NCBI GenBank assembly: GCA_029975475.1
Contig: JARKPB010000008.1
Coordinates: forward strand, 930,001-994,000
Length of the DNA: 64,000 bases
Reading direction: 5' to 3'
DNA from: Anaerolineaceae bacterium
Lineage (GTDB): Bacteria > Chloroflexota > Anaerolineae > Anaerolineales > Anaerolineaceae
The position numbers and the translations under genes were made by a program. The notes under the pieces are model-generated. The model saw nothing but the letters and a program-made list of their open reading frames with translations, was not told the DNA's origin and did not search any database. Positions 9,829 through 54,269 of the stretch are shown here, in pieces; position 1 is the stretch's first letter, and every line of letters starts with the position of its first letter.

Positions 9829-10130
9829 AATTAATAATCAAAAACGTAGAGAGGGAAGAGTACTTTTCTCCCAGTCGGCACAGAGAGCAGGAACAGGTGA
9901 GAGCCTGCCCGAACCGAGAAAAGGAATGGGCCCTGGAGTTGCAGGGTGAAAGGTAGCGAGTAGCCCGCGCCGGAGTTACCACCGTTATCCAGGTAAAGGG
10001 TATAGATTGTATCGTACCCAAAAAAGTGAGGCTGGCAAAACCCCTGGTGCTATCACCGGGGATTTTTTTTCAGCCTAACTGGGGTGGCACCGCGGACTTC
10101 AAGTTCGTCCCCTTTGGGACGAACTTTTTT
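9829..10130 (+). promoter_or_regulatory. Tryptophan-specific T-box riboswitch
   Basis: A tRNA-sensing leader of about 300 nt. Stem I elements include the loop-E AGTAC near 9859-9862 and the distal GGTGAGAGCC (9896-9905). The specifier loop reads GAA-TGG-GCC with the codon UGG (Trp) at 9927-9929. The T-box core TGGCACCGCGG lies at 10085-10095; its UGGC bulge would pair with a GCCA acceptor end, as in tRNA-Trp with discriminator G. A terminator (10101-10111 / 10116-10126, then U4) competes with the antiterminator. Uncharged tRNA-Trp should therefore switch on the downstream trpB2. A second hairpin at 10041-10060 is followed by U8 that can also pair inside Stem III. Confidence 0.93.
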
Positions 10131-10174: not shown

Positions 10175-11554
10175 ATGTCTGAAACAACCAAATATATCCT
10201 GCACGAGTCCGATCTGCCAAAATTCTGGTACAACATCGCCGCAGACAGCCCGATTCCGCCAGCGGCCGTTCTGCACCCCGGAACGCACCAACCGGTAACG
10301 CCTGATTTTCTATCGGCCCTCTTTCCAGCGGGCCTGATTGAGCAGGAAGTATCCACGGAAAGATATATTGAAATCCCGACTGAAGTCAGGGAAATTTACA
10401 AATTGTGGCGGCCGACCCCGCTGCTGCGCGCCCGGCGGCTGGAAAAAGCGTTAGACACACCGGCGCATATTTATTACAAATATGAAGGGGTATCCCCGAG
10501 CGGCAGCCATAAATCCAATACCGCGGTTCCGCAGGCATTTTATAACAAAATTGACGGCACCCGCGCCATGACCACTGAAACTGGTGCTGGACAGTGGGGA
10601 ACGGCTTTATCCATGGCCTGTCAGTTCTTTGGACTGGATCTGGAAGTTTACATGGTCAAGGTCTCATACAATCAGAAACCTTACCGACGATTCTTGATGG
10701 AGACCTACGGCGCGCAAGTATACGCCAGTCCCAGCGAACGCACCCAGGCCGGGCGGACGATTCTTGGGGAAGACCCGGACAATCACGGCTCTCTCGGCAT
10801 CGCGATTTCTGAAGCGGTCGAAGCGGCCGCGGTGTCTGCCGGGCAGAAAAAATACGGTCTGGGGTCTGTGCTCAATCACGTGCTGCTCCACCAAACGGTC
10901 ATCGGCGAAGAAGCCCTCAAACAGATGGATCTGGCCGGAGAGTATCCCGACATGGTCATTGGGTGCGTGGGCGGCGGGTCGAACTTTGCTGGGATCGCTT
11001 TCCCATTCCTGCGGCAAAACCTGGTAGAGGGAAGAAAAACCCGTTTAATCGCGGTAGAACCGGCGGCTACCCCTTCCTTAACGCGGGGAATATATACCTA
11101 TGATTACGGAGATACCGCCCGGATGGCGCCAATTGTCAAAATGTATACTCTGGGTCATTCATTCATGCCGCCGGCGATTCACGCGGGCGGTTTGCGCTAC
11201 CATGGAATGGCGCCTCAACTCAGCGCGCTGTATTCCGGCGGTCTGATTGAAGCCGTCGCGGTAAATCAACTGGCGACCTTTGAAGCCGCGGTCACATTTG
11301 CGCGCACAGAAGGTATCTTGCCCGCGCCTGAATCGGCCCATGCCATCCGAACGGCAATGGATCAAGCCCTACTGGCGCGCGAGACTGGCGAGAAAAAGGT
11401 AATCTTGTTTAATCTCTCCGGGCACGGGCATTTTGATCTCTCCGCCTATCACCTGTATCAATCCGGAATGCTGGAGGATTTCGATTTTCCGCAGCGTGAA
11501 ATTGACAGCATCCCAGATCGAACGCCGAAGATTGATGAAGTTCTGGCCATGTAA
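10175..11554 (+). CDS. trpB: TrpB2-type tryptophan synthase beta chain
   Basis: A 459-residue PLP enzyme. The lysine that forms the Schiff base is K113 in SPSGSHKSN; the phosphate-binding GGGSN is at about residues 268-272. The long N-terminus and overall length match the TrpB2 (TrpB-like) family and not the roughly 400-residue TrpB1. TrpB2 condenses indole, or in some lineages another nucleophile, with serine or phosphoserine. No trpA is adjacent, so indole rescue rather than channelled synthesis is plausible. The Trp T-box upstream links it directly to tryptophan supply. GAGAGGTG precedes the ATG by 5 nt. Confidence 0.9.
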
Positions 11555-53523: not shown

Positions 53524-53581
53524 ATGCTGCCCGGCCATCAAGAATCTACACAAGCGGCATGAACTGTGGTATAAGAAAGTT

Positions 53582-53757
53582 ACCCTGCTGTGCCCGTGAT
53601 GCCGCATCACCGGTTTTGAGCCAACACTTGAAAAAACTCGTTCGTGCTCTGAGGGTAACGCGATAGGCTCAGGCCAAGGCGGATCTTCTCAGGCCGGACA
53701 TAACCTGCTTTGGCAGGTTCAAAACTCCGCGGCACACGACATAGTGGGGTCTTTTTA
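53582..53757 (+). ncRNA. Structured RNA, possible 6S RNA
   Basis: About 175 nt whose ends pair: ACCCTGCTGTG... (53582 onward) with ...CATAGTGGGGT (53740-53750) through a long, wobble-rich helix, extended by TGCCGC / GCGGCA. Inside are GTGATGCCGCATCAC, a TTGAGCC / GGCTCA stem, and a small ACCTGC-TTT-GGCAGGT hairpin on the 3' side. After the closing stem comes CTTTTTATTA, a terminator tail. A -10 TATAAG is at 53570-53575. The layout (closing stem, central bubble with a 3' hairpin, apical stem) is that of 6S RNA, but the family call is from shape and memory only. No protein frame is supported. Confidence 0.5.
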
Positions 53758-53768
53758 TTACCTTCTGG

Positions 53769-53797
53769 TTGACAAACTGATTTCTTAGTAGTATTAT
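53769..53797 (+). promoter_or_regulatory. Promoter of tRNA-Met
   Basis: TTGACA (53769-53774), 17 nt, TATTAT (53792-53797). Transcription begins just before the tRNA and would run on into the repeat array. Confidence 0.8.
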
Positions 53798-53808
53798 TGC
53801 GCACGTTT

Positions 53809-53880
53809 GGCGAGGTAGCTCAATGGTGGAGCAGGGGACTCATAAGCCCTTGGATGTGGGTTCAAATCCCACCCTCGCCA
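53809..53880 (+). tRNA. tRNA-Met (anticodon CAU; elongator or Ile2)
   Basis: A 72-nt cloverleaf: acceptor GGCGAGG / CCTCGCC, D-stem GCTC/GAGC, anticodon loop CTCATAA, T-arm GTGGG-TTCAAAT-CCCAC, discriminator A at 53880. The anticodon CAT could be elongator Met or the lysidine-modified Ile2; the sequence does not decide. It lacks the three G-C pairs of initiator tRNA. Pair 31-39 is an A-G mismatch. CCA is not encoded. Confidence 0.9.
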
Positions 53881-53882
53881 CT

Positions 53883-54178
53883 CAACGTTTTCAGCGCTAA
53901 GCCCTGTCTGTACGGTTCCCCGCGGTGCGGGGCAGGCAAATCCCACCCTCGCCACTCAACGTTTTCGGCGCTAAGCCCTGTCTGTGCGGTTCCCCGCGGT
54001 GCGGGGCAGGCAAATCCCACCCTCGCCACTCAACGTTTTCAGCGCTAAGCCCTGTCTGCGCGGTTCCCCGCGGTGCGGGGCAGGCAAATCCCACCCTCGC
54101 CACTCAACGTTTTCGGCGCTAAGCCCTGTCTGTGCGGTTCCCCGCGGTGCGGGGCAGGCAAATCCCACACTCGCCACT
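53883..54178 (+). repeat. Four tandem 74-bp repeats that copy the tRNA-Met 3' end
   Basis: Exactly four units (53883-53956, 53957-54030, 54031-54104, 54105-54178) with very few differences: base 11 alternates A/G/A/G, bases 29-30 vary, and unit 4 has CACACT for CACCCT. Each ends in the same 20 bases (CAAATCCCACCCTCGCCACT), which are the last 18 nt of the tRNA plus CT. The first 54 bases carry a GC-rich hairpin CCCCGC-GGT-GCGGGG. No variable spacer is present and no terminator lies between the tRNA and the array. Alternation suggests duplication of a 148-bp dimer. No protein is supported in it. Confidence 0.95.
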
Positions 54179-54211: not shown

Positions 54212-54250
54212 TGATAAAAATAAACGGCCAGGCGGTTTGCCTGACCGTTT
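54212..54250 (-). terminator. Intrinsic terminator of the AOR-family gene
   Basis: On the minus strand, a stem 54250-54239 / 54233-54222 (one mismatch) is followed by TATTTTTATC. It marks the right edge of the repeat array. Confidence 0.8.
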
Positions 54251-54269
54251 GTTTCCTTCCTTTTCGCTC

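Follow-up and report, generated by a model that had tools for sequence, protein, structure and literature searches.

Tandem units ending in copies of the tRNA 3' end behind a tRNA-Met gene of an Anaerolineaceae bacterium, and the recurrence of this layout behind other tRNA genes

We analyzed a window of 64,000 nucleotides from an Anaerolineaceae bacterium (assembly GCA_029975475.1, contig JARKPB010000008.1, positions 930,001 to 994,000), whose genome is called G000 below. On the forward strand, the window carries an intact tRNA-Met(CAU) gene with no encoded CCA at 53809-53880 (Rfam RF00005, 69.5 bits; ARAGORN places its end at 53881). Directly 3' of this gene lie four head-to-tail units of 74 bp (53883-54178), and TRF reports a repeat of period 74 with 4.3 copies and 97% match over 53863-54178. 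The tRNA ends in the 18 nt CAAATCCCACCCTCGCCA (53863-53880), followed by CT up to 53882, and this tail with its CT has five occurrences in the tRNA and the array, the last of which has one mismatch (CACACTCG). A preliminary description of the locus had given the shared tail as 20 bp plus CT. The recurrence stands, with the reservation of the mismatched last copy, and the length has to be corrected to 18 nt of tRNA plus CT. The same description had reported four 74-bp units with the tail present five times, a strict A/G alternation at base 11 of the units, and a single base of difference between units 2 and 4, all of which we recovered in the sequence.

All units are on the forward strand. Unit 1 (53883-53956) is composed, in this order, of a trailer, a weakly tRNA-like stretch (53896-53917), a GC hairpin (53918-53932), CAGG, the tail (53937-53954), and CT. 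Unit 2 (53957-54030) has its hairpin at 53992-54006 and its tail at 54011-54028, unit 3 (54031-54104) at 54066-54080 and 54085-54102, and unit 4 (54105-54178) at 54140-54154 and 54159-54176, the latter being the tail with the mismatch. The hairpin has 6 bp of GC (CCCCGC GGT GCGGGG) and occupies the middle of the unit, not its start as previously thought. The tRNA-like stretch ahead of it had been overlooked.

A sigma-70-like promoter (TTGACA-17-TATTAT) was found by a consensus scan on the same strand at 53769-53797, 11 bases 5' of the tRNA. It has 11 of the 12 consensus matches, for a mean of 0.4 such sites in shuffled sequences. Just upstream of this promoter, a 6S RNA match that is not part of the array occupies 53579-53754 of the forward strand (Rfam RF00013, 52.6 bits for a gathering score of 46.4). 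The terminator scan revealed none between tRNA-Met and the array, in agreement with the preliminary description, and the first terminator-like hairpin comes after the array (54222-54251, both strands). The absence of an integrase or element at the locus was also supported: a Pfam search of 42 open reading frames of the window (one of 163 aa and the complete set of 41 with 200 aa or more) identified no recombinase or transposase, and none of the five PF00589 matches of G000 is within the window. Far from the array, the window has a T-box leader at 9838-10115 (RF00230, 121 bits), ahead of an open reading frame for a 459-aa PLP-dependent enzyme (10175-11554).

The preliminary description had proposed to search related genomes for like arrays beside tRNA genes, and these were found behind many different ones. 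After masking of other tRNAs, each tRNA tail was searched for in its own 300 nt of downstream sequence (shorter where some contigs end) and, as a control, in the downstream region of every other tRNA of that genome, counting exact matches of at least 13 nt. Summed over six genomes, tRNAs were followed by their own tail in 26 of 277 cases, versus 7 of 12,538 mismatched pairings. These include 2 of the 46 tRNAs of G000 (control 0 of 2,070), 8 of 44 in G042 (0 of 1,892), 6 of 49 in G113 (1 of 2,352), 4 of 43 in G029 (4 of 1,806), and 6 of 48 in G071, which belongs to another family (2 of 2,256). Genome G017 had none among its 47 tRNAs (control 0 of 2,162). In one genome, a threshold of 12 nt gives 10 of 44 tRNA genes versus 6 of 1,892 mismatched pairings. 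A looser test (at most 4 mismatches, 600 nt) found upstream copies only beside neighbouring tRNAs or one pseudo-tRNA. The exact test misses the arrays of tRNA-Cys(GCA) and tRNA-Ser(CGA) in G000, where matches are shorter. This genome has four loci in total. Three are those of Met, Cys, and Ser(CGA), and the fourth is a single copy that follows another tRNA(CAU), either elongator or Ile2. The tail test also missed two hairpin-GTGATA modules with decayed tails behind tRNA-Lys(CTT) of G113 (L190). Hence, these counts are underestimates. The layout is a recurring kind of repeat, not a local oddity. To judge from the sequences compared, the arrangement is present in two families of one order, partly with a shared hairpin module.

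We then define as array loci 27 loci of G000, G042, G113, and G029, of which 24 follow from the 12-nt rule and three were added by hand, the Leu locus of G029 being weak. To describe what a unit is made of, the stretch before the hairpin was aligned within tRNA positions 29-58 for 19 units of seven genomes, picked where the insert was recognisable; 14 of the 27 array loci are part of this comparison and the other 13 are not. In 16 of the 19 units, no other tRNA matched this stretch as well as the unit's own. The three ties are the Met unit of the window, the Met unit of G104, and the Pro unit of G042. In the window's unit there are 8 matching bases; 23 of 500 shuffles score at least as high, and another tRNA ties with it. 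Taken alone, the tRNA-likeness of this unit is thus weak, and its assignment draws on its position and on the parallel units at other loci. We read the 16 best-matching units as a copy of the 3' half of the tRNA with its trailer, in which a hairpin appears inserted near the T loop. The hairpin is mostly in the T arm; a few loci have it in the variable region instead, or beside the acceptor strand. Some loci, such as Gly and Ser(GGA) of G042, keep just the tail with an altered hairpin loop. The unit behind tRNA-Gly(TCC) of G113 (L176) contains several hairpins, one of them apparently within the loop of another.

A simple duplication of the terminal tail was considered as well. It is an incomplete account, given that those 16 units resemble the tRNA ahead of the insert as well.

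The hairpin of the Met units is kept among relatives. In nine units from seven species of genus g9, a set that leaves aside the window's unit and was picked partly for a visible hairpin, the five pairs are 93% paired and four of them have changed on both sides. Double changes affect 12 cells, versus 4.8 in shuffles (0 of 500 reach 12), and the signal is destroyed when the partner is slid. Two of the five measures were unremarkable, namely the number of pairs with double changes (4 versus 2.7, 93 of 500 shuffles) and the further pair types (8 versus 8.6, 414 of 500). Such compensatory changes support a kept hairpin in the Met units, not common descent, because the units were picked partly for a visible hairpin.

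The rest of the unit changes quickly. At the tRNA-Met locus, at least one tail copy is present in 9 of the 12 species of genus g9 in which tRNA-Met was found (of 16 genomes searched), with one to five copies and differing spacers. For comparison, no tail copy was seen in the 26 other relatives inspected, which are the best-matching loci among 101 genomes (one with 113 nt downstream). The differences in copy number and spacers within g9 indicate fast turnover. Across 18 arrays, tail cores are at least 83% identical to the tRNA, a figure biased by the detection of copies with at most 2 mismatches in 12, while pairwise spacer identity drops, the lowest values being 0.36 (G042 Ser), 0.51-0.65 (G029 Lys), 0.59 (G008 Met), and 0.53 (G103 Met). 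Units inside one array are often near-identical.

The preliminary description knew of no repeat family with this architecture. This does not hold, since the repeats of the E. coli tyrT/tyrV tRNA pair (rtT RNA, RF00391), to which our E. coli comparison is confined, share the layout and are the closest known case. They too lie directly behind a tRNA gene, each ends in the tRNA 3' end, and they have an earlier tRNA stretch and a T-loop insert rich in hairpins. In NC_000913.3, the distance from the tRNA tails to their copies is 175 and 178 bp, and in the tRNA copy, GGTTCGA and ATCCTTCC are split by a hairpin-rich insert 68 nt long. This spacing, the size of the insert, and a tail with CCA set the E. 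coli repeats apart. In the 1970s, the E. coli tyrT region was reportedly found to contain about three repeats of a 178-bp sequence, each with the 3' end of tRNA-Tyr. The tRNA-Met array has the first trait of this layout, a tandem repeat right behind a tRNA with units that end in its tail. The second trait, a hairpin insert in a 3'-half tRNA copy, is that of the 16 of 19 units, the window's unit tying with another tRNA. The Rfam model of RtT (RF00391) matches E. coli and none of ten loci from G000, G042, and G008, and at ten array loci Rfam gave, besides tRNA and 6S, only sub-threshold matches.

Other relatives of the rtT repeats have been mentioned. A passage of PMC2965389 counts enterobacterial attenuator-like elements similar to rtT among the BIMEs, and PMC4986893 reports that in Actinobacillus pleuropneumoniae the tRNA genes for Asn and Lys are preceded by relatives of RtT. 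In Dehalococcoides, according to the portions of PMC3146451 consulted, the 3' tail of an RNA gene (ssrA) is repeated downstream, with an insertion in the T loop and a conserved motif just before the 20-bp tail repeat. The same portions describe multi-gene islands with repeats across up to 100 kb, unlike our short units, and an integration module headed by the serine integrase DsiB in 16 of 31 islands. Our literature search returned no description of the arrangement beyond Dehalococcoides (PMC3146451) and papers that mention rtT, and none of its extension to numerous tRNA genes with a hairpin module in common. A layout matched to one tRNA locus of E. coli is frequent in the related genomes analyzed here. 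This recurrence makes several questions testable: the origin of such repeats, the T arm as a site of interruption, and whether rtT-like RNAs are general or accidental.

How might such arrays arise? Our preferred reading, to which we give a probability of about 0.5, is that hairpin-interrupted copies of the tRNA arise recurrently by local duplication and are amplified through their tails, mainly as a DNA-level by-product of the instability of tRNA 3' ends. The array would derive from the 3' half of the tRNA gene that precedes it, and a unit would consist of the trailer, tRNA remains from the 3' side of the anticodon to the T stem, a GC hairpin near the T loop, and the tail. A local duplication accompanied by the insertion of a hairpin would seed one interrupted copy behind the intact tRNA, and this would happen recurrently. 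Unequal tail-to-tail recombination, or slippage, could then gain and lose units. The tail would stay tRNA-like because it is the site of exchange with the selected tRNA gene, while the remainder turns over. Several observations speak against this reading. Plain duplication leaves unexplained the recurring hairpin and the kept pairing of the Met hairpins, as well as the presence, in two families, of a hairpin and RTGMTA directly ahead of the T loop of various tRNAs. In addition, the window's unit fails the test of tRNA-likeness on its own, and some loci have only the tail and a changed loop.

A rival reading is a mini-element. A GC hairpin followed by RTGMTA directly 5' of the T loop is found at tRNA-Lys, Gly, Glu, Ser, Pro, and CAU loci of G008, G113, G029, and G071. 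The module is shared by different tRNAs of two genera (g9 and g30) and of a further family. Several units of G042 and G000 have GCTKCGC or CTGCGC in place of RTGMTA. Such a module might be read by a putative recombinase or HUH-type enzyme that targets T arms and restores the tRNA, the units being cassettes bounded by tails. We regard this as unlikely, even if a number of results favor it. Among the loci fetched, a perfect GC hairpin with RTGMTA occurs in 20 distinct contexts, of which 11 enter a T loop, all 11 behind tRNAs, and 9 do not. A scan of six genomes with a strict pattern, devised after the arrays were seen, gave 19 sense and 4 antisense hits in the 300 nt downstream of tRNAs, versus 3 sense and 4 antisense upstream; two of the 19 are double-counted at one tRNA pair and two are at non-array tRNA-Leu loci. 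The spacers behind tRNA-Ser(CGA) of G042 follow an a-b-a order, and the compensatory changes in the Met hairpins point in the same direction.

Against a mini-element, no enzyme was found for it. Matches to Y1_Tnp number one or two in each of four genomes, and none of the four motifs searched was present at five Y1 transposase loci. The hairpin form of the module is absent from the viral contigs searched, and the 25 matches of its 15-mer alone are not above the chance estimated for so large a collection. For the GCTKCGC-type motif with a hairpin, the loci then fetched gave 97 of 611, with 83 of 523 and 53 of 457 for control motifs, which is little excess. Both the position and the sequence of the insert vary among loci. 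A hitherto undescribed family of tRNA-bound mini-elements, defined by the hairpin and RTGM(TA) before the T loop of a 3'-half tRNA tail, set behind intact tRNAs by a putative activity in at least two families of one order, and to which the E. coli tyrT repeat would be distant or convergent, can be put forward only tentatively. In one locus (G105:C101, 2069-2431; L058/L164), a gene for a Y1 transposase (RAYT-like) and a REP-like palindrome lie directly behind a tRNA-Met unit.

The 3' ends and T loops of tRNA genes are common attachment sites, and the preliminary description had mentioned them as such. Under this explanation, the units would be remnants of elements that integrated into tRNAs by means of a tyrosine or serine recombinase, amplified after the loss of the element. 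We consider it improbable. The ssrA islands of Dehalococcoides provide a precedent for it (PMC3146451, in the portions cited above). In G042, a tail copy of fMet with a hairpin in the T loop is close to an integrase fragment (L305, G042:C8, near 67,624). On the other hand, G000 itself offers a genuine case for comparison: a 30.2-kb integrated element outside the window (G000:C18, ~597,500-627,800; L169, L170), with a tyrosine integrase beside tRNA-Pro(GGG) and a far att copy 30.2 kb away. As in the arrays, a tail copy lies behind the tRNA, but here it is a single copy, uninterrupted from the anticodon past the tRNA end. When the last 45 nt of the tRNA are compared with the 27 array loci, exact identity extends over 26 nt at most, and over 19 nt at the tRNA-Met array; the array sequences show inserts or diverged loops, and point changes alone could also limit the length of these matches. 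Simple att scars do not fit the array units, as far as sequences can tell, because the array matches are interrupted, unlike the tRNA-Pro(GGG) att copy. Furthermore, none of the PF00589 matches of G000 and G042 adjoins their array tRNAs. With regard to an integron-like cassette array, three of 13 PF00589 matches were scanned with an IntI profile and scored 41-63 bits, far below its cut-off of 265. Copies of tRNA tails near tRNAs should not be read automatically as integrase scars. The fMet tail copy at L305 adjoins a terminator hairpin that itself carries a further hairpin insert in its loop.

The arrays could instead be transcribed and processed trailers that work as RNA, like E. coli rtT, which we deem quite improbable. 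The promoter-like site 5' of tRNA-Met, the lack of a terminator before the array in the scan, and the hairpin kept in the Met units of relatives are in line with it. The number and sequence of units vary among species of one genus, which speaks against a functional RNA, and the whole transcript at the tRNA-Met array folds little better than shuffled sequences (z of -1.37, 7 of 100 shuffles being as good). A terminator-like hairpin precedes the first tail copy in 11 of 26 array loci (G029 Leu and G071 left out), and read-through transcription is for this reason unlikely as a general explanation. For comparison, 73 of the 155 array-free tRNAs of the same four genomes have a terminator-like hairpin within 80 nt. 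At loci without an intervening terminator, tRNA-Met included, transcription probably also extends through the array as a long trailer, and such loci may yield RNA products.

That the array is an assembly error or an ordinary dispersed REP repeat can practically be discarded: even if two arrays end at contig ends (G042 Gln, L122; G008 Lys, L083), like arrays are found within large contigs (4.1 Mb in G029, 4.4 Mb in G071), the 74-bp unit is confined to one place in G000 (G000:C18:983883-984178), and 23 of 30 examined matches of the motif GGNTGCTKCGCRA fell within open frames 185 codons or longer, the others being in arrays (3), in other noncoding sequence (3), and unassigned (1). The preliminary description had named scattering of the unit away from tRNAs, as a REP element, as the outcome that would contradict it, and this is not what we observed. 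Array units have in common with REP and BIME sequences the short palindromes in noncoding DNA; they differ in being tied to tRNA tails and not dispersed. The motif GGNTGCTKCGCRA has 41 matches in five genomes, versus 15 for the reversed pattern. The exact 29-base pattern of the unit gave no match in viral contigs, and the core 17-mer matches in 9 genome-contig stretches, which we take for chance. Contigs ending inside the Gln array of G042 and the Lys array of G008 are expected if assembly breaks at such repeats.

One minor observation concerns loci L311, L319, and L305, which have in their middle a noncoding sequence common to G113, G029, and G042, at which Rfam gave no match. All three contain CCTTTACAGG(G/A)TGCTTCGCGA, and the shared sequence also has GGCACGGATTC(G/A)GGAT nearby.
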